IMG/VR virus record: IMGVR_UViG_3300022752_000169
Location: 1-39,304 of that record
DNA from: a virus
Length of the DNA stretch: 39,304 bases
Direction: 5' to 3' (one strand)
Positions 3,527-39,252 of this stretch are shown one piece after another (position 1 is the stretch's first letter; each line of letters starts with the position of its first letter). The position numbers and the translations under genes were made by a program. The notes under the pieces were generated by a model. That model worked only from the letters and a program-made list of their open reading frames with translations, did no database searches and was not told the DNA's origin.

Positions 3527-3805
3527 TCATTTATCCGCGGCCCGTTTGTTCAATACACTGTTCCCCATCCGGCTTTCCAGATAGCCCACGATGTCTTTGA
3601 CGGTCCGGATTCTCTCGGCGTCCTCGTTCGAGATTTCGATGCTGTATTCTTCCTCGAACGCCATGATGAGTTCCACGTCGTCCAGCGAGTCTGCTCCTAG
3701 TTCACGGAGTGTTCGTTCCGGAGTGATTTCACATTCATCGACGCCGAGTTGATCCGCGAGGATGGTCTGCTTGTGTTTCAGGTAGTCGTGTTTGTAGTGT
3801 CCCAT
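3527..3805 (-). CDS. Acyl carrier protein, phage-encoded
   Basis: A 92-aa protein with the full acyl carrier fold signature. The motif [12 protein letters not shown] has Ser40 in DSLD, the site of 4'-phosphopantetheine attachment. Helix III/IV regions ([19 protein letters not shown]) closely follow bacterial AcpP. In cells such proteins carry acyl chains for fatty-acid, lipid A and related syntheses in the cytoplasm. The gene sits alone between gaps of about 170 bp inside the replication operon and looks less GC-rich than its neighbours, suggesting recent acquisition. No ketosynthase or transferase lies nearby, so it must work with host enzymes, or serve a non-lipid role (E. coli ACP binds several unrelated proteins). 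The family call is secure; the phage role is unknown. Confidence 0.92.
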
Positions 3806-12218: not shown

Positions 12219-12836
12219 CTACGCACTGGCTGCGAGGACGAGCTGCGCTTCGCCATCGCGGCGACGAAGCAGCCCGTCCAAGCCTTGGCCTTCCCAGAGG
12301 CGTTTCATCTTTCGGATTAGATCCGCAATGATGATCAGGAGCCCACGCAGCTCCCGCTTGCGCTGCTCTTCTGCAAGGATTCGCCAAGAAGCCACAGCGC
12401 GGTTGATGCCCAGCATTTCCACCCTCCGCGGGCCGGTGAGGTCGGTGCCGCGGTTGAAAACCAGGCTGACTAACGCACCACGCGCATCCTCGGGGAGTAG
12501 CTCGACGCCGGGGAAGGTGCGACGGGTCGCGGCGATCCACTTGGGCAACGTGCGCTCCGTGAAGACCTTCATGGCCTGCTCCTTGGTCACAGTGATCCCG
12601 CGGAAACGGCCGGCGATCTGCGCGGCGGCTCGGCCCGTGAGTCCGCGGGCCTGCTTGAGACTGGCCAGAGCAAGCGGGTCAAGCACGCCCTGCCAATGGT
12701 CCAGAGCCTCCGGATCGGCGCCGATGTCCGACCCGACTCCCAGCGTGATGCCGGACCCGCCCCCGGGCCATTTCCAGGGCTGATCAATGCCTTCCATCTC
12801 CACGATGAAGGCGATGGAGCGCGGGGAGATAGTCAT
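12219..12836 (-). CDS. Endolysin, pesticin/T4-lysozyme-like
   Basis: A 205-aa muramidase candidate that would degrade host peptidoglycan at lysis. The N-terminus shows IVEMEG (Glu13/Glu15), then KWPGGGSGITLGVGSDIG with Thr31 and Asp37. This Glu...Thr/Asp arrangement and the G-x-T-x-G-x-G-x-D-x-G pattern match the lysozyme fold of pesticin and related phage endolysins. A second conserved-looking segment is ALVSLVFNRGTDL (about residues 126-138). It has no signal peptide, so it depends on the overlapping holin gene upstream (ATGA). It is the last late gene. Confidence 0.82.
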   Translation of the reverse strand: MTISPRSIAFIVEMEGIDQPWKWPGGGSGITLGVGSDIGADPEALDHWQGVLDPLALASLKQARGLTGRAAAQIAGRFRGITVTKEQAMKVFTERTLPKWIAATRRTFPGVELLPEDARGALVSLVFNRGTDLTGPRRVEMLGINRAVASWRILAEEQRKRELRGLLIIIADLIRKMKRLWEGQGLDGLLRRRDGEAQLVLAASA

Positions 12837-13189
12837 GACCGCACGTCGTCAGACGGGACTACCAAGTCCGCACGGCCGGCCGCTTCGATCAGACGTTCTC
12901 GCGATGACTCCACGATGCGCGACGGGCCTGGAGGAAGATGAAGGATCGTACCTCCGCTGACTACTGCGTCCTTGCTGACGTGTGCATTGACCAGCTTGAG
13001 GACAAAGGCGGCCGCAGCCGACACGGCGAAGAGTCGCGCTTTCCACTCGGGCGGGATGATGGTGGCGAGATCGCCGAGCTCGTAAGGTGCTGCAGCCAGG
13101 GCGGCGAGGGTGGCGAGGATGGCGGTGCCGTAACCGGTGAGGGTGGTGCGCCAGTTGGCGCCGATGAGACGTTCGAGCAGTTGGACCAT
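12833..13189 (-). CDS. Holin-like membrane protein, 118 aa
   Basis: Two hydrophobic segments are visible: residues about 15-35 (TTLTGYGTAILATLAALAAA) and about 52-68 (ARLFAVSAAAAFVLKLV). A charged C-terminus ends the protein. This size and topology next to the endolysin, with ATGA coupling, supports a pore-forming holin. Its start is preceded by the repeated TTTGACAG element with a 15-base spacer. Confidence 0.7.
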   Translation of the reverse strand: MVQLLERLIGANWRTTLTGYGTAILATLAALAAAPYELGDLATIIPPEWKARLFAVSAAAAFVLKLVNAHVSKDAVVSGGTILHLPPGPSRIVESSRERLIEAAGRADLVVPSDDVRS

Positions 13190-23491: not shown

Positions 23492-24007
23492 CTACTTCTT
23501 CCAGCCCCAGCCCTGCTGGATCTCGCGCGAGGGGTTCGGCGGCGTGGGCTGTGGTGCGATGGGACCGCCCCCGAGGCCGAGGCGTTGCGCCTGGGTGACG
23601 GAGCCGGCCGTGACGGCGCGCCCCGGACGCAAGGCGAGGAGGGTGCTCCCGCGGAGGTAGGCAGTGGCCAGCTCGGGCTGCGCATAGCCGCCGAGGCTAT
23701 TCTTGGCCCGATAGCTAAACTCGACGACCCAGCAGGGCTCGCCCTGCCAGTCGCCGGTGCGAGGCGGGACGATCTGCACGACCTGAAGGGAGTCGGGATC
23801 CTTGAGCTGCTGCTTGAGGGCGCGGACGACGGCGGAAGGGAGCGTGGTGCCGTAGGCGACAGGCGGCGCGCCATGGATGGCCTCGGGCGACCCGGGAGCG
23901 GGCGTGGGAGAAGCCGTGGCAAGAGAGCCGAGACCCTGGAGGGCGAGGACGATAGCGATGGCGGCAAGCGCGGTCATAACGAGGAGGACTTTCAGACAGC
24001 CTTTCAC
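23492..24007 (-). CDS. Exported or membrane-anchored tail-region protein, 171 aa
   Basis: A GTG start at 24007 is preferred because it yields a textbook Sec signal: MKGCLKVLLVMTALAAIAIVL followed by Ala-rich ATAS and a Pro-rich linker. An inner ATG (start of MTALAAIA) is the alternative. The mature part has one Cys (GEPCWVVEFSYRAKNSLGG) and a Pro-rich C-terminus. A secreted protein between the tape measure and tail-tip genes is unusual. It could be a moron acting on the host envelope or a virion component matured in the periplasm. Confidence 0.55.
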   Translation of the reverse strand: MKGCLKVLLVMTALAAIAIVLALQGLGSLATASPTPAPGSPEAIHGAPPVAYGTTLPSAVVRALKQQLKDPDSLQVVQIVPPRTGDWQGEPCWVVEFSYRAKNSLGGYAQPELATAYLRGSTLLALRPGRAVTAGSVTQAQRLGLGGGPIAPQPTPPNPSREIQQGWGWKK

Positions 24008-24053
24008 GAGCGGGAAGGTGACTCGAAAATGGCGCGGAGCAAGGACCAGCGCG

Positions 24054-25604
24054 CTAGATGAAGACGAGCGGGGCGACCACCGTCTGCGGCTTCTGATTGC
24101 GCACGGTGCGATCGATCGAGGCAAGGAGCGCGGTGTGCCGCTTGTTTTCGTCGAGGAGCGGATCGGCACCATAGCCCCCGAGAGCGATGCGCTGGAGACT
24201 GGAGACGCCTCGCGGAGTGAGCTCGCCAGACACGGTGCCGCCTGGGGCGCCACTCACGGTGGGATTGGCGGCGAGCTGGGCGACGCTGGTCTGGTTGACC
24301 TTTTCCATGGCGGCGGCAAATTGGTCGGCGAGGCGATCGTTCAACGCCTTGGTATCGAAGAGGGTCTGCCCTTCGCGAAAGCCACGAGTGATGGCTGCGA
24401 CGGTGTTGCCGATGGTGGCCTGGAGCCGTTGGTTGGCCAGGTCGACGGTCGGGGCCAGGCTTTGACTGGCGCGGCGATCGAGTTCGCCGGCGGCAGTGCG
24501 CTGTTGAGCAGCATTGTCGCGGGCCGCGGTCGCTCCGCTACGGAGGAAACCGAGCCCGGGCGCAGAAGCGAGGTAGTCGATGAGGTTGGCGACGCCCTCG
24601 AGCATGAGAGCATTGAAGCGCGAGGCCGCAGCGAGCAGGGATTCGGCAAGGCCAACCCAGAAGCTCGGAGTGACCAGCGTCTGCAGGACGGCGACGGCAT
24701 TGTTTGCGCCCTCGACGAGGTACTGCCAGATCCCCTGCCCAAGGGCATCGAAGACGCCGGCGAGGAAATTGCCCAGCTCCGCAAGAGCGATCTGGCCGGT
24801 GGTGAGGAGTGCCTCCCAGATGGAGCCGTCGGAGAAGGACTGGATGAGGACGGCGATGACTTCGCCGACTTGCTGCCCGAGCTTGGCGAGGTCGAGCTTG
24901 GCAAACCCGTCGAGCAATGGGAGAAGGACCGGGGCGATGCGCTCGGCGGCACCGACGAAGAACGCCTGCGTCTTGAGACCGGCGAGGGCGAGCTTGTCGG
25001 AGACGGCGTCGAAGAGACCGGCATTGCGGCTGAGGATCTCGGCTTGGCTGCCTACTTGCTCGGCGGCGTCGCCGAAGCCTTTGCTGGCAAAGGTGGAGAG
25101 CAGCGAGGCGCCTTGCTTGCCAAAGAGCGCCATGGCGACGGCGGTCTTCTCGGCCGGATCCTGTAGGCCATCGATGGCGGCACCGAGCGCGCGAAATTGC
25201 TCGACGGGCGTGAGCTGGCGGAGCGTGTCGAGCTCCAGACCGAGACGGGCGATCTCGGCATTGGCCGTGCCCTCCTGCAGGGCCTTCTGCATCTTGTTGA
25301 TGGCTGGCGCCACGTCCTCGGCGGCCTTGCCGGAATTGCGAAACTCCTGCTGCAGGATGAGCATCTGATCGACGGCGATGCCGGTATTGGCCGCGAGGTC
25401 GTTCAGATTGCCGCCCACGTCGAGCGCGGCGGCAAATTGTTCGCCCGCCTTGGCAATGAGCGCACTGCCAAGGATGGCTTTCACGGCGCCCATGGTGCGG
25501 GCAAAGCCGCCCTGCAGATCGCGCAGGCGGCGGTCGATGCGCTCGACGACTGCCGCCAAACGCGAGTCGTCGCCGTCGAAGATTGCAGTCGCCTTGCTGG
25601 CCAT
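24054..25604 (-). CDS. Tail tape measure protein, short
   Basis: A 516-aa protein rich in Ala, Leu and Gln with long helical stretches. The N-terminus (VVERIDRRLRDLQGGFARTMGAVKAILGSALIAKAGEQFAAAL) is followed by LAANTGIAVDQMLILQQEFRNSGKAAEDVAPAINKMQKAL, a pattern common in tape measure N-termini. Hydrophobic segments lie near residues 250-340. Position just after the frameshifted chaperones fits. The length implies a tail of only about 75 nm by the usual 1.5 angstrom per residue rule. Start is ATG 25604 with TTTGACAG 12 bases upstream. Confidence 0.8.
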   Translation of the reverse strand: MASKATAIFDGDDSRLAAVVERIDRRLRDLQGGFARTMGAVKAILGSALIAKAGEQFAAALDVGGNLNDLAANTGIAVDQMLILQQEFRNSGKAAEDVAPAINKMQKALQEGTANAEIARLGLELDTLRQLTPVEQFRALGAAIDGLQDPAEKTAVAMALFGKQGASLLSTFASKGFGDAAEQVGSQAEILSRNAGLFDAVSDKLALAGLKTQAFFVGAAERIAPVLLPLLDGFAKLDLAKLGQQVGEVIAVLIQSFSDGSIWEALLTTGQIALAELGNFLAGVFDALGQGIWQYLVEGANNAVAVLQTLVTPSFWVGLAESLLAAASRFNALMLEGVANLIDYLASAPGLGFLRSGATAARDNAAQQRTAAGELDRRASQSLAPTVDLANQRLQATIGNTVAAITRGFREGQTLFDTKALNDRLADQFAAAMEKVNQTSVAQLAANPTVSGAPGGTVSGELTPRGVSSLQRIALGGYGADPLLDENKRHTALLASIDRTVRNQKPQTVVAPLVFI

Positions 25605-30985: not shown

Positions 30986-31591
30986 TCAATTTGAGCCCTT
31001 GATCAGGCCTTTTTCGACCAGCGAGGCCCGGAGCTCATTGGTGAGGTCCGTGAGGGCCAGCACGTCCGCGCGAAGCTGATTGACCCGCGCGACGAGATCG
31101 GTCGCTTGCGTCTGACCAAAGCCGTAGGGCGAAGAATTCGTCGGAGCCGTGGTGGCAACGGCAGCGCCTACGGTGGTCGTGACTGCGGCCTGCGCCGTGC
31201 CCGCCCGCTGAATGACGGGCGTGGCTCCGTGGAAGGCGAGCTTCTGCGCCGTGGCCGTGGCAACCTTCGTGCCGGTACTGGTGCCGACGGCGAAGTCGAC
31301 GCCCTCGGCCAGGGTGGTATCGGCGGCGGAGGAGACCACGTCCGAATCCTGCGCTCCACCGGCCGCGAGCAGGCCGAGGTCTTGCATGGCCTGGCGTGCG
31401 GTGCGCGTATTGGCCGGCTGGGCGACGGGCGCGACGCCAAAGAAGCCGAGCGTCTGCTGCGCGGTGGTGGCGATCTGGTAGCCGGCGCCGGTGTCGCGGA
31501 TCTGCGTGCCAGCAAAGGCGACGTAGCCGAGGAGGAGCGCTGCTGCGACTAGCAGCGTGATAGCGGTGAGGTTGGCCTTGAGTTTGTGCAT
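30986..31591 (-). CDS. Capsid-associated protein with N-terminal anchor, 201 aa
   Basis: ATG 31591 gives MHKLKANLTAITLLVAAALLLGYVAFAG, a signal anchor (residues about 8-28). Two related segments follow: TTAQQTLGFFGVAPVAQ and TATAQKLAFHGATPVIQ. That repeated pattern (T-A-x-Q-K-L-x-F-x-G-A-x-P-V) is, to my knowledge, common in phage head fibre or head accessory proteins. The C-terminus is a helix (LVARVNQLRADVLALTDLTNELRAS). A membrane-anchor N-terminus on such a protein is unexpected. Located directly after the major capsid gene. Confidence 0.55.
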   Translation of the reverse strand: MHKLKANLTAITLLVAAALLLGYVAFAGTQIRDTGAGYQIATTAQQTLGFFGVAPVAQPANTRTARQAMQDLGLLAAGGAQDSDVVSSAADTTLAEGVDFAVGTSTGTKVATATAQKLAFHGATPVIQRAGTAQAAVTTTVGAAVATTAPTNSSPYGFGQTQATDLVARVNQLRADVLALTDLTNELRASLVEKGLIKGSN

Positions 31592-31628
31592 AGCGAGGTG
31601 TGGAGCGATGGCGCCGGTGAAGACTGGC

Positions 31629-32921
31629 CTAGGCGGAGACGATGCGCTTGAGGGCGAGCTTCTCGCCGAGCGCCTTGCCGTAATTGACCTCAATGACGCG
31701 CTTCATCGTGTCGGTGTCCGGGTCGAACCACATGCGGTACTCGAACGCAATGCCGGTGTCGGGATCGTCGATGATGCGGTAGTCGACGATCTTGCCATTG
31801 TCGGCCGGCGCTACGGGGCTGGTAGCCACTAGGATGGCGGACTTGAAGCAGGCCATGCCGACAAGGTTCTGGCCATTGCTGGGAATGGCGGGGCTTGTGC
31901 CGTAGTCGAAGCCGTAGACGCGGGGGAGGACGCCCGTATTGACGGTGGTCTGGCCGGCGACGGTGAGGTCGCGGCGGAAATTTGCATCCTTGAGCAGGGC
32001 GCCGTCGTAGTCGGGATTGACCAGGAGACCGCGGCCGGTCTCAGGCCAGGGGACGGTGGCCCGACCCAGGGTAAAGGTGACGCCGGTAGCGGTGGCCGTG
32101 GCATTGGCGGACAGTGTGACGGTGGTCGCATTGGTGTAGCCAGCAATGGTGGTATTGGCCGGGATGCCGTTGCCCGAGATGGTGGTGCCGATATCGCTCG
32201 GGGTGAAGCGAGCAGTAGCGCTGGTGACCGTGGCGGACGTGTCCGTGGTGGCGCCATCGGTGACGCTGGTCGGGCCGGTCTTATTATTTCCGCAGGCGGT
32301 GCGGATATCGACAATGTCGTCGCTATCAAAACCGGAGGCAGCGCCGGTGAAGACGGCCGGGCCGAAATTTGCGGCGGTGACAAGGCCGAGCACATCCTGG
32401 ATGAGATCGTAGGCGAGCTTCTCGCCCTTCATCATGCCCATCTGCTCGACATTCAGTCGGGGCTGGCGAGCCAGCTCCGCGGAGGTCGCCTTGAGCGGCT
32501 GATAGGCGCGCTCCGAGACCGTGATCTCGCGGAAGTCGGTCTTGCTGCCTGCACCGGTGGCGAAGTCGTAGGTGCCATTGAACGACTTCGACGCGATGCC
32601 CTGCAGCGGGATGTAGGGGACGCGGACCTTATCGTCGCCCTGGAGCTGCACATTGCGGAAGACGGTGGAGAAGACCATGAGCGGGGCGATGGCCCGCTTG
32701 TAGCTCATGAGGGCGGCACCGAGGAAGGCACTGAGCTGGAGCTCGGAGGCGATGTCGTTCGTATTCGGCGCAGCATTCAGCTCGCCGCGACGGAGAGAGG
32801 CGGTGCTAAGCGTGGCCAGGACGAGGAAGCCGAGGGTGAGCGCGGCAGCAAAACCGTGAGTGGTGGCGATGCTCACGAGGAGCAGCGCGGAGAGGGCGGC
32901 GAAGAGTTGCTTGTGATTCAT
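31629..32921 (-). CDS. Major capsid protein candidate with hydrophobic N-terminus and inserted domain, 430 aa
   Basis: Position after portal, protease and scaffold genes, plus a stretch LSAFLGAALMSYKRAIAPLMVFSTVFRNVQLQGDDKVRVPY (residues about 65-105) typical of phage coats, support the call. Two features are odd. Residues 5-43 are almost wholly hydrophobic (LFAALSALLLVSIATTHGFAAALTLGFLVLATL region), like a signal or double anchor. No ATG, GTG or TTG lies between this segment and the coat domain, so it is not an annotation artefact unless CTG is used. Also, a Thr/Ala-rich module (about 210-290, with FTPSDIGTTISGNGIPANTTIAGY) is inserted in the coat fold, probably displayed outside. Confidence 0.72.
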   Translation of the reverse strand: MNHKQLFAALSALLLVSIATTHGFAAALTLGFLVLATLSTASLRRGELNAAPNTNDIASELQLSAFLGAALMSYKRAIAPLMVFSTVFRNVQLQGDDKVRVPYIPLQGIASKSFNGTYDFATGAGSKTDFREITVSERAYQPLKATSAELARQPRLNVEQMGMMKGEKLAYDLIQDVLGLVTAANFGPAVFTGAASGFDSDDIVDIRTACGNNKTGPTSVTDGATTDTSATVTSATARFTPSDIGTTISGNGIPANTTIAGYTNATTVTLSANATATATGVTFTLGRATVPWPETGRGLLVNPDYDGALLKDANFRRDLTVAGQTTVNTGVLPRVYGFDYGTSPAIPSNGQNLVGMACFKSAILVATSPVAPADNGKIVDYRIIDDPDTGIAFEYRMWFDPDTDTMKRVIEVNYGKALGEKLALKRIVSA

Positions 32922-32961
32922 AACAAAGAGGCGTGACGAGTGAGCTATAGGGTGGAAAGAG

Positions 32962-32969
32962 GTGTCAAA
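32962..32969 (-). promoter_or_regulatory. TTTGACAC element, distal copy (capsid gene)
   Basis: TTTGACAC 40 bases upstream of ATG 32921, with TATAGC 13 bases downstream of TTGACA. This copy is far enough from the start to act as a -35 box, though the spacing to the -10-like sequence is short. Confidence 0.4.
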
Positions 32970-32975
32970 GGTGGG

Positions 32976-33596
32976 TTAGCCAATCTTGGCGCCGGCAGCG
33001 CGTGCGGCTTTGTAGATGGCGTCTCCGTCGGTGCGGAGCATGGCCGTGCGCTCCCCCGGGGTAGCCGCCATGAACTTCTCCAGGATGCCTTTGCCAGTCT
33101 CTTCGGCGGAGGGAGGCACGACTTGGTCGGCTTTGATGCCCTTTACCTGCAGGGCAGCCTCCGCGAGAGTGAGCATCTCCTTGGTCCTGCCGTGAGCCTT
33201 GCGCTCGGCGTCGCGCTCTTCGATGGCCGTGGCCAGCTCGGTCCGGGCCTGATCGCGCTCCTGAGTCGCGGTCCGGGCCGTCTCAATGGTGGACGCAAGC
33301 AGACCCTTGGTCTTGCCGTGATCGGCTTCCTCGGCGCCGAGCTTGGTTTCGGCCGCGTCGCGATCGGCGCGGGCCTTTTGCAGCTCGGCCAGGGCCTCGG
33401 GGAGCGTCTTGGGCTCGATGTCCTCGCGACGCGCCGCAGGCTTGGGCGGCTGCTGCTGCGACTGAGAAGGGGGAGCCTGCTGCTGCTGACTGGCGCCGGG
33501 TGCCGGCGGAGCGTCGACGGCAGATGCAGACGCAGTGCCGAAGAGACAGAAGAGGGTGGTGACGAGAGCGAGAATGAAGAGGCGGGCTTGCAACAT
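32976..33596 (-). CDS. Scaffold-like coiled-coil protein with a Sec signal, 206 aa
   Basis: The N-terminus MLQARLFILALVTTLFCLFG plus TASASA is a classical cleavable signal peptide, followed by a Gln/Pro-rich linker. A long charged coiled coil fills residues about 65-150 (LAELQKARADRDAAETKLGAEEADHGK). The short C-terminal region (ILEKFMAATPGERTAMLRTDGDAIYKAARAAG) may bind coat protein. Place between protease and major capsid genes, and the coiled coil, indicate a scaffold. A scaffold should stay in the cytoplasm, so the signal is a real puzzle. Start has TTTGACAG 12 bases upstream. Confidence 0.6.
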   Translation of the reverse strand: MLQARLFILALVTTLFCLFGTASASAVDAPPAPGASQQQQAPPSQSQQQPPKPAARREDIEPKTLPEALAELQKARADRDAAETKLGAEEADHGKTKGLLASTIETARTATQERDQARTELATAIEERDAERKAHGRTKEMLTLAEAALQVKGIKADQVVPPSAEETGKGILEKFMAATPGERTAMLRTDGDAIYKAARAAGAKIG

Positions 33597-33608: not shown

Positions 33609-33616
33609 CTGTCAAA
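33609..33616 (-). promoter_or_regulatory. TTTGACAG start-proximal element (scaffold gene)
   Basis: TTTGACAG with a 12-base spacer to ATG 33596, just downstream of the palindrome at 33624-33643. Confidence 0.7.
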
Positions 33617-33623
33617 CCTGCGG

Positions 33624-33643
33624 CAGTAAAACCGGTTTTACTG
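33624..33643. repeat. 20-bp perfect palindrome spanning the protease stop codon
   Basis: The two 10-base halves, beginning CAGTAAAACC, are exact reverse complements. The protease stop codon (33638-33640) lies within it. It could form a cruciform or RNA hairpin, or bind a dimeric protein. It sits 7 bases before the TTTGACAG element, the same order as at 36396 and 30588. Confidence 0.75.
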
Positions 33644-34510
33644 ACCGTCGAACTTGCCTTTCGCCAAGGCGGTGAAGAAGGCCTGAGCGGAGGGGACAAA
33701 ACGGTCGACGAGATTGGCGTCGAGGGCGGCTTTGTTGTTCAACGTCTGGCCCTGCATATGAGGCACGTCGATGGCGCGCATATTCGTCACGTCGCGGGTA
33801 AAGAGGCGGTAGCCTGCATCGACATTAGCCTGGAGATAGGCGCGGTCTTTGTCGCTCAGCGGCTTGCCCATGAGGCCGAGCGCCTTTTGATCACCGGCGC
33901 GGAAGAGCTCGAGCCGCACGCCACGCTGGCTGAGGTATTCCACGAAGTCGTAGAGGGCGATATAGACGCCGATGGAGCCGACCTCGGCGGTGGGGGTGGC
34001 GACGATCTGCTCGCACTGGCTGGCGAGCCAATAGGCAGCGGAAGCGCACAGGTCGTCGGTGAAGGCGATGAGGCGACGCGTCTTGCCCGCCTGGCGAAGG
34101 GCGGCGGCGGTCTCGGGGATCCCGGTGATGATCCCGCCCGGACTGCGAAACCACAGCACGACGGTGGATCCGGCGGGCGCTGCGCTGACGGCGGCGGTGA
34201 TCTCGTCGACCTCGACGGCGTCGAACCAGTAGCGATCGGTGGTGGTCCAGCCTCGTCCTACGGCGCCCCAGACGAGGAGGACGGTGAGATCGGCGCTGAC
34301 CTCGGGCAGCAAGCCCTGATTGGCCGTGATGTAGCTCTCGTCATTGAGCGGGACATAGCCAGCTTGCGGGGTACCCTCGCGATCGGTGAGGGCGCGCTGG
34401 CGCACCTCGCCGCCGATGATGAGCTGGCTGAGGGCGACAAAAGCCTCGGGCCGGATGGCCCAAGGCTGCGCGACGGTGCGGGTGAGGAGCTCGACATTCA
34501 GGGGTCTCAT
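33638..34510 (-). CDS. Head maturation protease, S49/SppA-like
   Basis: A 290-aa serine protease of the ClpP/SppA fold. Ser157 in CASAAYWLAS is the expected nucleophile and Lys209 in FRAGDQKALG the general base, the S49 Ser-Lys dyad. FRSPGGIITG (121-130) forms the oxyanion region and AEVGSIGVY (175-183) is typical. Like lambda gpC, it would cleave portal, scaffold or coat proteins inside the prohead. Overlaps the portal stop by ATGA. No in-frame scaffold extension is present; the scaffold is a separate gene. Confidence 0.9.
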   Translation of the reverse strand: MRPLNVELLTRTVAQPWAIRPEAFVALSQLIIGGEVRQRALTDREGTPQAGYVPLNDESYITANQGLLPEVSADLTVLLVWGAVGRGWTTTDRYWFDAVEVDEITAAVSAAPAGSTVVLWFRSPGGIITGIPETAAALRQAGKTRRLIAFTDDLCASAAYWLASQCEQIVATPTAEVGSIGVYIALYDFVEYLSQRGVRLELFRAGDQKALGLMGKPLSDKDRAYLQANVDAGYRLFTRDVTNMRAIDVPHMQGQTLNNKAALDANLVDRFVPSAQAFFTALAKGKFDGQ

Positions 34511-36087
34511 GGCTGCTGCTGGGCTGGATCGGTGGACGGCTGCGGATCGGGGTTGGCAGGGGGCGAGCCCTGGGTGGTGGAAGTAGGCCAGGTCTGGTCG
34601 TAGGTGCGCGGCGGCAAGCCGAGGCCCTCCAGCTTGGCATTCATGCGGGCGAGCTTTTCATGCCGGCGCTCGATGACGGAGAGGTTTTCATTTTCGACGT
34701 CTTCGTCGTCCTCGCCGGTGAGGCCGTGGAAGGAGCTGATAGACATCCGATTTGTGGCGACGAGGTCGGCGTAGAGCTTGCCTTCGCGACCGAAGTCGAC
34801 GGTAAGATCCGGAAGGGGAACGGTCTTGTGCTTCAACCAATCGCGCGGGATCGGCCCGGGGATGGCGCCGGCGCGGATCCGATTCCAGGCGAAGAAGAGA
34901 TTCCAGCGCTCGCAGAACTGCGGCTTGAGCTGGAACTCGCGGGCGTGAGTATTTGCGCCCTTTACGCGCTGAAGCTGCATGCGGACCTCGGTACCCTGGG
35001 TGAGGCCGGCGAGAAAGAAGACGTAGGCGGGCGGACGCTTGGTGGAGTAGGCGACTTCGCGGAGGATGTTGTCGAGGAAATCGGTGACGGCCGTCCCGGG
35101 GCGATTGCTCTCGATGGTCTGGAGCTTGGTGCCGGGCGGGAGCGTGGGGATCTGGACATCGTCGGTGCCACGCTCGCCAAAGAGCTTCTGCACGGTGTAC
35201 TTGGTGCCGTCGGGATTCTCCACCGTCTCGACTGAGCCCTCGCCGCCGAAGATATTCTGCGGCTTGGCCATGGCGGAAGTCGGCTGGGCCTCGATGGCAA
35301 AGCCCATGCGCTCGCGGGCGAGCGTGCCATTGGCCAGGGCCTTGTGAATATCCTCGCGGCGAAAGAGGCGCTTGGCGACGGAAGCGAGGGCGGGCACGCC
35401 TCGGATCTCGCCCGGCAAAAACGGGTCGTGGAAGTGCAACATCTCGGAGGCCGGGACGGTGATGGATTTGCGCTGGCCGGCATAGTCGACCACGATGACC
35501 TTGTACTCGATCGGGCGGCCGCGGGAATTGCGACGGACGCCATCGCGCCAGCCGCTCTCAGGGCTCTCGGTGCCGTCGCATTCCACGCGATAGCCGGGGA
35601 TGAAACTCATGGCGGGCATGCCGGTCTCGGGGAGCGACTCGATGAGCTGGCCAAACATGTCGCCGTAGAGGCGGATGCCGCGGCGGATATTGTACTGCGC
35701 GGTGTAGACGTCGCTCTGGCCGTCGGCAGAGAAGATGAACGGATCCTTATTGGCGGCGTGGAAGAGATCGGTGATGGTGCGATTGTAGTCTGGATCGCTG
35801 CTGGTCCACTTCGGCCAGAGCCCGGTGCCGACCTCGTCGAGGGCGAGGCCGTCGATGACCATGGTGACGGCGCCGACGTTCTTGTACAGCCAGTCGGAGC
35901 GCTCCTGCAGGACGGCGCGTGAGCACGAGTCGAACTGGTCGGACGGCTCGAGGCTCGGCACGTAGAAATAGCCGCGGAAGTCGGAGCGATTGGCGGCTTC
36001 GTAAATCTGCCACCAATTGGTGGCGGCCTGCGGACGAGGGGACGAGCGGCGAGCGGGCTGGCCGTCGGGAGCGAGGATGCTGCTCAT
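34507..36087 (-). CDS. Portal protein, lambda gpB-type, 526 aa
   Basis: Forms the dodecameric DNA gate at the capsid vertex. Characteristic features are AATNWWQIYEAANRSDFRGYFY near the N-terminus, then DYNRTITDLFHAANKDPF, YNIRRGIRLYGDMFGQL, VPASEMLHFHDPFLPGEIRGVPAL (a conserved block of lambda-type portals) and TEVRMQLQRVKGANTHAREF. The C-terminus is Pro/Gln-rich and disordered. Coupled by ATGA to the genes on both sides. Confidence 0.9.
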   Translation of the reverse strand: MSSILAPDGQPARRSSPRPQAATNWWQIYEAANRSDFRGYFYVPSLEPSDQFDSCSRAVLQERSDWLYKNVGAVTMVIDGLALDEVGTGLWPKWTSSDPDYNRTITDLFHAANKDPFIFSADGQSDVYTAQYNIRRGIRLYGDMFGQLIESLPETGMPAMSFIPGYRVECDGTESPESGWRDGVRRNSRGRPIEYKVIVVDYAGQRKSITVPASEMLHFHDPFLPGEIRGVPALASVAKRLFRREDIHKALANGTLARERMGFAIEAQPTSAMAKPQNIFGGEGSVETVENPDGTKYTVQKLFGERGTDDVQIPTLPPGTKLQTIESNRPGTAVTDFLDNILREVAYSTKRPPAYVFFLAGLTQGTEVRMQLQRVKGANTHAREFQLKPQFCERWNLFFAWNRIRAGAIPGPIPRDWLKHKTVPLPDLTVDFGREGKLYADLVATNRMSISSFHGLTGEDDEDVENENLSVIERRHEKLARMNAKLEGLGLPPRTYDQTWPTSTTQGSPPANPDPQPSTDPAQQQP

Positions 36088-36472: not shown

Positions 36473-38287
36473 TCAAGCAGCAACGGGACGAGCAAGCTCG
36501 TCGCCGAAGTCGCCGCCCTCGGCAGCGTCTTGCTCAGTCACATCGGAGACGAGTCGCGAGCGGCGGCCGCCGATGAGCCAGTCGATGGCGGTAAGCACGA
36601 TCTTGGTCGCGTCGCCGTAATGATTGGGGCGCTTGTGATCATCTTCCCACACGACGCGATTGGTCCGCTTGTGGCGGATGAGTCGCTCGGCGCTGTGCTC
36701 GCGGACGAAGATTTCGTCGATATCTTCGCAAAGGTGAAGGCCGGGGGGCTTCTGCTCCTTGATCCGGTCGATGTAGAGATCGAACATCGCGTCGCGATTG
36801 ATGAAACTTAACAGACCGAAGCCGACGGGCTTGTCCGGAATCTGCTGATAGCTAATGCTGCGGGCGGCGAGACCTTTCTTGCCCATGGTCGGGAAGATCT
36901 GCGTGGGCGCGAGCAAGCAGGTCTCGTAGACCTCGTCCGTCCGATAACGAGCGTCGATGAAGGCGAACTGGATCGACTGCTTGGCTCCGGTCTCGGCGCA
37001 AGCGTAGCGCTTGGCACGCATGAGGCTGATCATGTCGGCCGGGCCGGTGGCGACGCCCCAATCGACCAGCCACATCTCGCCCTGGCGATTGAAGGCCCAG
37101 ACGACCCATCGCGTATTTGTATACAGACCGATGTCCATGCCGGCGATGAGAGCGCACTTGCCGTGCGGGATCGTGCCGCGGCGGTAGGGCTTGCGCAGTT
37201 TCAGCACATCGGGGATCTCGATCCGGCGGATTTTCTCTTCCCAGGCTTCGCCCAGGCGTTGCTGGCGGAAGGTCTGGCGGAGCTGGCGATCGTCATTGGC
37301 CTCGGCGCGGATCCATTCATTGGCCAAGTGCCCCCAGGTCGACCCGCTGAGCATGGACGGCAGATCGCTCATATGCTGCGTGACGATCTCGGGATCTCCT
37401 TTGGCCGTCGGGATCCAGACGCCGTTGTCATTCATCCACTGTTTGTGGCGATCGTAGATGGGCTGTCCGCATTTGCGGCAGCGGTAGAAGGTCTCATTGA
37501 GGACCCGCTCTTTGTCCCAGCCGGTAGCGAGGTCGCGGCAGTGGCCGAACTCGACGCGCGACCACTCGAGCGGCTGTAGATCGTGGCAGCCTGGGTGCGG
37601 ACACGGGACGTGCCACAGCTCTTTGTTGCCCAGCTCGTAGAACGAATCGATGGGTCCGTCCTTCTCGGCGGGCTTGGACAGCACGACTTGGAAGGCGTCG
37701 TCGGCTTGTTTGGTCCGCGACCAGTAGTTTTCTACCGTATTGCCTTCCTCGCCTACTTCGCCATAGAGGTCGATCTCGTCATTGAAGACCCAGGGGGCAA
37801 ACTTGTTCGAGAAGCCGCCGGCGGTGAAGGATCCGTCGAACCAGATATCCATGCCCCGGAGCTTGCACTTGAATTTGCTAAGGTCGTCTTTGTTATCGGT
37901 GAATAGCTCCTGGCCGAGATCGAGAAGCGTCGGGATGAGACGGTCGCGGACATTGCCCACCTCTTTCTGGCTATCCAGGCTGATGATGCAATTGCGCGGG
38001 CGATACTTGGCAGTCCAGCGAATGCTATTGAGGATGCAGCTCTCTGTGTAGCCAGACTGCGACGATTTTTTCGATCCGAAGCGGCGGATCCGGCGACCGT
38101 TGTGCCACGGCTTGCGGAGCAGATCTCCCGCTCGGCGCGTCCATGGGGTGCGCTTGCTGCGGTAGGTGGGCTCGGGCGATTTGCGAAGGGTGAATGCACC
38201 GGATTCGGCCCATTGCCAGATGGGCACGTCCGGGATCTCAGCAAAGGCGCGAGCGAAGAGCTCAGGCAGCCAGGGCGAAGAGAACAT
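36473..38287 (-). CDS. Terminase large subunit, lambda gpA-like
   Basis: A 604-aa packaging ATPase and nuclease. The ATPase has a gpA-type phosphate loop GSKKSSQSGYTE and a Walker B-like WVFNDEIDLY. A Cys4 zinc motif (CPHPGC ... CRKCG) and the nuclease segment ALIAGMDIGLYTNTRWVVWAF follow, all in the order of the lambda gpA family. It translocates DNA into proheads and cuts at cos. ATG 38287 (MFSSPWLPELFARAF) was chosen; it overlaps the small subunit by 26 bases, and the frame further upstream is only overlap. No ribosome-binding site is visible. Confidence 0.92.
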   Translation of the reverse strand: MFSSPWLPELFARAFAEIPDVPIWQWAESGAFTLRKSPEPTYRSKRTPWTRRAGDLLRKPWHNGRRIRRFGSKKSSQSGYTESCILNSIRWTAKYRPRNCIISLDSQKEVGNVRDRLIPTLLDLGQELFTDNKDDLSKFKCKLRGMDIWFDGSFTAGGFSNKFAPWVFNDEIDLYGEVGEEGNTVENYWSRTKQADDAFQVVLSKPAEKDGPIDSFYELGNKELWHVPCPHPGCHDLQPLEWSRVEFGHCRDLATGWDKERVLNETFYRCRKCGQPIYDRHKQWMNDNGVWIPTAKGDPEIVTQHMSDLPSMLSGSTWGHLANEWIRAEANDDRQLRQTFRQQRLGEAWEEKIRRIEIPDVLKLRKPYRRGTIPHGKCALIAGMDIGLYTNTRWVVWAFNRQGEMWLVDWGVATGPADMISLMRAKRYACAETGAKQSIQFAFIDARYRTDEVYETCLLAPTQIFPTMGKKGLAARSISYQQIPDKPVGFGLLSFINRDAMFDLYIDRIKEQKPPGLHLCEDIDEIFVREHSAERLIRHKRTNRVVWEDDHKRPNHYGDATKIVLTAIDWLIGGRRSRLVSDVTEQDAAEGGDFGDELARPVAA

Positions 38288-39230
38288 CGGCAGTGGTGCG
38301 GAAAGCGGACAGATTGCGGAGCGCCTGCTCCTCTGCGCGACCGACTTGGTCGAGCACCGCGCTAAGGCGGTCGAGCGTCTCCTGGGGAAGGTCCGAGAGC
38401 TCTGCGCGGACACGGGTGATGCGGTGCTCGCGGAGAAGGGCGAGGGTGCGCAGGGCAGTCATGACCTCATTGATGACTTCGCTTTTGTCGAGGTATTCGC
38501 CCAGGCGCTTGGCCCGGGCCTCGGCAGCGACCTCATGTTTGCGCAGGGATTCGCCTACTTTTTCCAGCCGGCCGTGCAGCACGCGGATACGCTCTTCGGT
38601 TCCGGAGGCGTAGGCCTCTTCGAGTTGGAGTTTCACGCCGGCGAAGACGCGGCGAAAGAAATCGACGCTCTCGCCTTCGACTCCTCCGACAGTAGCCAGG
38701 TCGAGAGGCGCAATCGTAGGAGCTGCATGGGGTCGCTGAGGCTGCGGTGCTTGCGGCGGATCGGCGCAAGCATCATGCTTGCACGGCTCAGGTGCAAGCT
38801 TGGGCGCGTCGCGCAGGGCGGCGTCCGCAGCCGCTTGGACCTTTTCACGCATGGCACTTCGCACTTTGTCCAGGTGCTTGTCGACCCATGCAGGCATGCG
38901 GGCTGGATCGTCCAGGGGACAGGGGTCGCCGCGCTCTTTTCCTCGAGCGATCCAACGACGCAATTGGCGATGCTCGACTCCGTATTGACCAGACCAGCGC
39001 TCGAGCTGGACGCGGCTCAGCTCGGCCTCTCCGAGGGCGGGAGATGGTTCCGGGGTGAGATGCAACGGCGGAGCCGCCGAACCACCAGCGGTTTCGTCCA
39101 AAGCAAACTCGGGGTCAACTTGGCGAATCTCGCTCAGCTCCTCCGGCGTGAGGCATGCGCCCGCCCCGTACCGCGCGATCAGGGCAGCGACTTTCTTATT
39201 CAAAGACAAGTCGACGGCTCTTTCGCGCAT
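38262..39230 (-). CDS. Terminase small subunit candidate, 322 aa
   Basis: First late gene, directly upstream of and overlapping the large terminase. Residues about 72-115 (VQLERWSGQYGVEHRQLRRWIARGKERG) form a helix-turn-helix like the DNA-binding domain of lambda Nu1. A Pro-rich linker and long C-terminal coiled coil (VKLQLEEAYASGTEERIRVLHGRLEKVGESL) follow. It would recognise the packaging site and recruit the large subunit. At 322 aa it is larger than the usual 160-200 aa. TTTGACAC lies 14 bases upstream of ATG 39230. Confidence 0.72.
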   Translation of the reverse strand: MRERAVDLSLNKKVAALIARYGAGACLTPEELSEIRQVDPEFALDETAGGSAAPPLHLTPEPSPALGEAELSRVQLERWSGQYGVEHRQLRRWIARGKERGDPCPLDDPARMPAWVDKHLDKVRSAMREKVQAAADAALRDAPKLAPEPCKHDACADPPQAPQPQRPHAAPTIAPLDLATVGGVEGESVDFFRRVFAGVKLQLEEAYASGTEERIRVLHGRLEKVGESLRKHEVAAEARAKRLGEYLDKSEVINEVMTALRTLALLREHRITRVRAELSDLPQETLDRLSAVLDQVGRAEEQALRNLSAFRTTADVLFALAA

Positions 39231-39244
39231 TTAGCGGCGGGAAG

Positions 39245-39252
39245 GTGTCAAA
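39245..39252 (-). promoter_or_regulatory. TTTGACAC start-proximal element (small terminase gene)
   Basis: TTTGACAC with a 14-base spacer to ATG 39230. A second related sequence, CTGACACT, lies just upstream (39251-39258). This is the only candidate signal visible upstream of the whole late block within the window. Confidence 0.5.

Follow-up and report, generated by a model that had tools for sequence, protein, structure and literature searches.

A hydrophobic hairpin ahead of the HK97-fold coat protein core in viruses of Verrucomicrobiota-type bacteria

Late genes of the window

The viral record analysed here (the window, meaning the whole stretch of 39,304 bases) carries all of its late genes on the minus strand, in the order terminase large subunit, small protein, lambda-type portal, S49 head protease, coiled-coil protein, capsid, third protein, and 110-residue protein. 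The head genes and the elements between them were placed as follows.

36473..38413, minus strand: terminase large subunit (PF20454 and PF05876)
34507..36087, minus strand: lambda-type portal protein (PF05136, E 1.4e-33)
33638..34510, minus strand: S49 head maturation protease, N-terminus not hydrophobic (PF01343, E 3.9e-25; phrog_53, E 2e-47)
33610..33616, minus strand: TTTGACA element, 13 nt 5' of the scaffold ATG
32976..33596, minus strand: scaffold-like coiled-coil protein, related by homology to the C-terminal region of protease open reading frames (ORFs) in relatives; signal-like start at 33522-33596
32963..32969, minus strand: TTTGACA element, 41 nt 5' of the capsid ATG (32 nt in locus L016, 42 nt in L017)
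31629..32921, minus strand: capsid gene, extension and core
31629..32765, minus strand: capsid core, HK97 fold (phrog_283 and phrog_267, major head protein; model and Foldseek)
30986..31591, minus strand: third protein, head-fibre-like; signal-like start at 31511-31591

TTTGACA recurs on the minus strand of the window, at 39252, 36389, 33616, 32969, 30580, 29066, 25624, 20739, and 13212. Across the window and 231 related viral loci, the heptamer was counted 811 times in the sense of the late-gene strand versus 53 times antisense (60 shuffled heptamers as control: median, 37; maximum, 183). Of 535 unique contexts, 180 place it exactly 13 nt 5' of a start codon and 104 more at 14 to 17 nt; 13 nt is the modal spacing in these phages and the one found at the scaffold ATG. 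TTTGACA-N13-ATG was rare in six Verrucomicrobiota genomes (0 to 11 per genome), and no -10 box was seen by eye near TTTGACA. The heptamer may be an element specific to the phages that acts as a promoter or in translation.

Elsewhere on the minus strand, the window encodes a phage acyl carrier protein (3527-3805; phrog_5934, E 1e-18) and, adjoining a tape-measure-like gene, a protein with a strongly hydrophobic stretch close to the start (23492-24253; phrog_2320, E 1e-9, function not assigned). A weakly matched holin-like gene (12833-13189; phrog_1356, E 0.04) adjoins an endolysin-like gene (12219-12836; phrog_7, E 2e-4).

The capsid extension and its relatives

Three consecutive head genes encode hydrophobic N-termini: the scaffold-like protein begins with MLQARLFILALVTTLFCLFGTASASA followed by VDAPP, the capsid with MNHKQLFAALSALLLVSIATTHGFAAALTLGFLVLATLSTASLRRGELNAAP and then its core, and the third protein with MHKLKANLTAITLLVAAALLLGYVAFA followed by GTQIRD. 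When 36 hand-picked window genes were ranked by the best 15-residue Kyte-Doolittle mean within the first 45 residues, the three took ranks 1, 3, and 2, respectively (2.57, 2.36, and 2.50), and a mean of at least 2.0 was reached in only 4 of the 36. These top three places confirm the hydrophobic run noticed in a preliminary description of this DNA, and the role names given there were broadly right (capsid, HK97 fold by model; scaffold, by homology; third protein, head-fibre-like). With four hydrophobic N-termini among 36 genes, we estimate the chance of the named trio at ~6e-4 and that of any run of three at ~2%.

The capsid is a phage major head protein by profile (phrog_283, E 8e-9; phrog_267, E 1e-8). 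An AlphaFold2 model, the check proposed earlier, gave a helix-break-helix extension and then an HK97 fold (pLDDT, 78), with phage capsids as top Foldseek matches (E down to 2e-12). An Ig-like insert of low confidence at about residues 217 to 289 (about 32055-32273) is common to L016, and similar repeats occur in unrelated large phage and host proteins. The extension was divided as follows.

32766..32921, minus strand: capsid N-terminal extension, residues 1-52, with basic start, TM1, HG, TM2, and basic junction (alignments and hydropathy; AlphaFold2 helices 3-22 and 24-38)
32859..32909, minus strand: TM1, residues 5-21 (hydropathy; helix in model)
32853..32858, minus strand: HG turn, residues 22-23, invariant across all hairpin-bearing capsids (alignment and shuffles)
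32793..32849, minus strand: TM2, residues 25-43 (hydropathy; model helix 24-38)
32766..32792, minus strand: junction RRGELNAAP preceding the core, putative maturation cleavage region (compared with relatives' junctions)

By comparison of sequences, the extension clearly appears to be translated and under purifying selection as a protein, though it evolves faster than the core. Its codon-position GC resembles that of the core. Between L239 and L267, two other hairpin-bearing loci, dN was 0.116 and dS 0.744 for the extension (dN/dS, 0.16) and 0.030 and 0.677 for the core (dN/dS, 0.04); the ratio in the extension points to translation and constraint as protein. The only possible starts 5' of the core in the window's capsid frame are the ATG at residue 1 and a GTG at residue 16, both before TM2, so no ordinary downstream start would drop the hydrophobic part. 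The scaffold stop lies ~210 nt from the core, while extension-less capsids begin at most 77 nt past the upstream ORF.

Verrucomicrobia phage P8625, Verrucomicrobiota metagenome-assembled genomes (MAGs), and many viral contigs yielded homologues of the capsid. In a class-level sample around an Opitutales MAG, 63 of 384 genomes had capsid matches, some of them via the Ig-like insert only. Nearly all of the more than 200 homologous capsid loci begin directly at the core. Among 164 loci with a capsid match, all entries but eight start there with a MANTI- or MATTIS-like sequence (long extensions printed for L034-L037, L065, and L072 are parsing artefacts, the ATG actually lying at the core). Four of the eight have a hydrophobic extension (the window, L002 and L016, which are the same contig, and L017); in the other four (L022-L025), protease, scaffold, and capsid share one frame or are cut by the contig end. 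The preliminary description would have been contradicted by homologues that all begin past the hydrophobic segment; comparison of N-termini found such starts in most, and not in L016, L017, L231, L239, and L267.

The hairpin thus recurs in the window, L016, L017, L231, and L239/L267. The L016 and L017 capsids are 62% and 49% identical to that of the window, and no resolved grouping was obtained for monophyly of these three. L231, in bacterial genome G372 of the class-level sample, places MNPLNKLRVLALVTAVMSLGVALQHGPGLGLVVLFAAAASLAPSAHTQCLGAN ahead of a core distant from the window's (E 1e-12), whereas among its relatives L247/L248 (40% identical) begin at the core, as do several dozen further distinct sequences; between these related cores the hairpin has been gained or lost. 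L239 carries MKKLFASFLVLLFVLSLAITARVALEHGPLAALTVFIVLDAAIASIGVVGFQMREYR ahead of its capsid core, and the L239 and L267 capsids are 90% identical. It took profile-profile comparison (hhalign, with a probability of 85% and E 7e-6) to link their core to the window's, apart from a model that resembles P22-like and other HK97 coats; the alignment behind this model included known family capsids, so the model is not wholly independent evidence.

When the extensions were aligned alone, M1 and the HG between the two hydrophobic helices were invariant; of random shuffles, 0.4% had any dipeptide that includes a rare or polar residue in common across four lineages in that region. The helix break falls at or beside HG in both capsids modelled with AlphaFold2 (those of the window and of the L239/L267 type). 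Basic residues precede TM1 in all four lineages and follow TM2 in three, and the stretch between holds few charges, a pattern that fits an N-in/C-in hairpin; crude membrane-insertion energies were borderline for L017. Searches for a widespread host or phage membrane module that matches the hairpin, covering Pfam, PHROGs, phage records, and the 384 related genomes, gave no convincing hit except L231 itself, and scans seeded with the L239 or L231 capsids found no more hairpin capsids apart from L267. No membrane-anchored HK97 coats were found in a search of literature mostly available without subscription.

Other relatives carry different sequences at the same site. A hydrophilic extension of about 50 to 70 residues, ending in a motif like V(L/M)NA(A) followed by (A/T)TNTID, was found in genome loci L190, L191, and L194, and L212 has a looser version of it. 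A similar junction occurs in two fused polyproteins, L186 and L192. Single frames of 634 to 820 codons end in the capsid core in L023, L024, L025, L186, L192, L217, L220, L232, L235, and L236; where read (e.g., L023-L025 and L186), such frames open with a Clp-like protease and are protease-scaffold-capsid polyproteins. Tandem capsid genes occur in L027, L041, and L042, where the ORF directly upstream ends in the same capsid C-terminal sequence. The window shares with L190, L191, L194, and L212 and with L186, L192, and L023 a pre-sequence at the same position and a partly similar junction, but the former have a hydrophilic helix-like extension and the latter the whole protease-scaffold fused, where the window has a hydrophobic hairpin. 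Counterparts of its RRGELNAAP are RGQLGAAP (L016), RGQCLGDN (L017), and HTQCLGAN (L231), and capsids of the hydrophilic-extension and fused types end their pre-sequence in PVMNAA before AANTID, with the wider form PVxNA(A) before A(A)NTID; the junction is loosely conserved and weakest in L239. The HK97/lambda-type head module of Verrucomicrobiota phages, known from P8625 and from prophages, has the same order of terminase, portal, protease, scaffold, and capsid, and P8625 gp11 is homologous to the window's capsid core, but gp11 begins at the core (MATNTIAG...) and a coiled-coil scaffold-like region forms the C-terminus of the Clp-like protease ORF in P8625.

A hydrophilic extension or fused protease-scaffold at this site in relatives argues that the hairpin occupies the position of a delta domain. 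The site ahead of the core is thus a slot for delta- or scaffold-like pre-sequences, filled in the window by a hydrophobic hairpin. Like a delta domain, the window's segment lies N-terminal to the core and is absent from the conserved core; its character is that of a TM-like hairpin, not of a hydrophilic, coiled-coil, or helical scaffold. Nor does it read as a Sec type I signal peptide: its two hydrophobic helices are flanked by basic residues on either side, and a cut after TM1 would leave TM2. The existence, conservation, modularity, and position of the extension are well supported.

The scaffold and the third protein

The coiled-coil protein is a scaffold, as judged by homology: a profile of the window protein and two counterparts matches the C-terminal part of many relatives' protease ORFs (E 1e-14 and weaker). 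By eye, its start fits n-, h-, and c-regions (MLQAR, LFILALVTTLFCLFG, and ASA-VD) with an AxA-type site, but this start is not conserved in relatives. The N-terminus is signal-like only in the window, partly hydrophobic in L187 and L239, and weakly so in L016 and L017. L267 starts with VKFTHYSIIGLSHKFFAADKG, which is not clearly hydrophobic, even though its capsid is so close to that of L239. Since the same domain is fused to the protease polypeptide in most relatives, export of the scaffold would make no sense, and its signal-like start is probably an incidental, window-specific elaboration. In the N-termini of the stand-alone scaffolds of L016, L187, and L188, a short sequence resembling (F/M/L)L(A/S)P(D/E) precedes a Gly-rich linker.

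The small-protein family of the third protein shows repeated xFHGATPVIQR-like and NELRAxLVEKGLIKG motifs, and a short relative matches head fibre proteins. The signal-like start of the window protein, followed by GTQ(I/V)xDTxxGYQ(I/V), is common to L043 and more loosely to L187, the conservation expected of a Sec signal; members of lesser length, among them the L017 protein of 94 residues, have no signal-like start.

The three features were seen together in the window alone. As far as these comparisons reach, the trio of hydrophobic starts as such is no conserved system, and the single pattern for all three proteins assumed in the preliminary description falls with the scaffold start, which is not conserved; a single shared mechanism for the three was likewise ruled out. 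The delta-type propeptide or membrane-nucleated assembly proposed there fits the capsid and is partly supported for it, the extension being conserved, modular, and in the slot of relatives' hydrophilic pre-sequence or fused scaffold; it is weakly supported for the third protein and not supported for the scaffold.

Possible roles of the hairpin

We tentatively read the hairpin, with confidence somewhat below even, as a delta-type propeptide of hydrophobic character that probably serves as a membrane tether and would insert coat subunits and be cut off on maturation; from its composition and position we infer insertion, topology, cleavage, and role as follows. The 52 residues would form a two-helix hairpin with the N-terminus and the core both cytoplasmic and the HG turn between the helices. 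Newly made coat subunits would insert as hairpins into the inner membrane while the core stays in the cytoplasm, which may concentrate subunits for prohead assembly, and head maturation would cut the hairpin at RRGELNAAP and release the shell. For the third protein, the signal-like start may serve this membrane location too.

A prohead-type protease gene lies upstream in every hairpin case inspected. S49 proteases are related to signal peptide peptidases, and the window's enzyme would suit a hydrophobic substrate, but the pairing is not required: L231 has the same hairpin beside a Clp-like protease with fused scaffold (identified by reading), not S49. The link to the neighbouring S49 protease suggested earlier is therefore not specific, and S49/SppA-specific removal as a candidate mechanism is weakened by the same locus.

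The T4 portal initiator is known to contact the membrane as heads assemble. In HK97 gp5 and T4 gp23, a delta domain or propeptide likewise stands N-terminal to an HK97 core beside a prohead-protease gene, but it is a coiled coil or hydrophilic helix, where a TM-HG-TM hairpin is predicted here. T4 proheads begin at the membrane and leave it once a protease has trimmed N-termini, among them the N-terminal region of the coat protein (PMC9958956). The tether proposed here would share with the membrane-bound T4 proheads (portal gp20, chaperone gp40) assembly at a membrane site and release after proteolytic maturation (PMC9958956); in T4, the contact is made by the portal initiator and not by the major coat protein, which here carries the hairpin.

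Geometry is a serious difficulty for the tether, because a shell with every subunit anchored in an outer membrane would be awkward unless cutting precedes closure, and the great majority of homologues assemble without a hairpin. The N-terminal arms and delta domains of HK97-fold procapsids normally face the lumen, so the hairpins would have to be removed ahead of shell closure or else make up a hydrophobic core in the interior. The latter describes a delta domain that works without a membrane, in which hairpins pack together, perhaps with the scaffold's hydrophobic start, as a procapsid lumen core later degraded by the head protease. We consider this rather unlikely. It accords with the inward-facing coat N-termini, with the presence at this site in relatives of hydrophilic delta-like extensions about as long, and with the hydrophobic scaffold starts of the window, L187, and L239. 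Against it, a pair of TM-like helices flanked by positive charges and joined by an HG turn resembles a membrane hairpin, one would expect N-termini of this kind to engage SRP or YidC while they are being translated, and the L267 scaffold start is not clearly hydrophobic.

The patchy distribution and the faster evolution of the extension would also suit sporadic hydrophobic N-termini that are merely tolerated and trimmed by the head protease or host peptidases, with no special mechanism, but an HG turn common to four lineages and a dN/dS of 0.16 make this improbable. Highly improbable is a freed hairpin that takes on a separate function once the head has matured, such as that of a peptide of class II holin-like or superinfection-exclusion type linking maturation to a membrane event: maturation cleavage would free the hairpin, and its N-in/C-in two-helix topology and size are like those of class II holins, but the window has a separate weak holin-like gene beside its endolysin-like gene, and no database match ties the hairpin to holins. 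Scarcely credible is an artefact in which translation begins at the core, as in most homologues, and the upstream frame is non-coding, with a downstream start ruled out by the lack of ATG, GTG, or TTG near the window core, by dN/dS, and by the gap lengths, and with coding-like codon-position GC and recurrence also against it.

To our knowledge, tailed-phage coat proteins are held to be soluble and cytoplasmic. The hydrophobic hairpin would be a new form of HK97-fold capsid pre-sequence, found in viruses of Verrucomicrobiota-type bacteria. Returning to the tether, its fullest form is possible though doubtful: a tailed-phage family would assemble its HK97-fold shell from coat subunits that a TM-HG-TM hairpin, conserved and moving horizontally, anchors in the inner membrane, and proteolysis would release them as the switch to maturation. 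A recurring membrane-hairpin pre-sequence on a coat protein would raise the question of where and how such heads assemble. It would also show that the delta-domain slot of HK97-fold capsids takes very different modules (none, a hydrophilic helix, a fused protease-scaffold, or a membrane hairpin), and TM-xHG-TM ahead of an HK97 core would offer a simple signature to search for in other phages.
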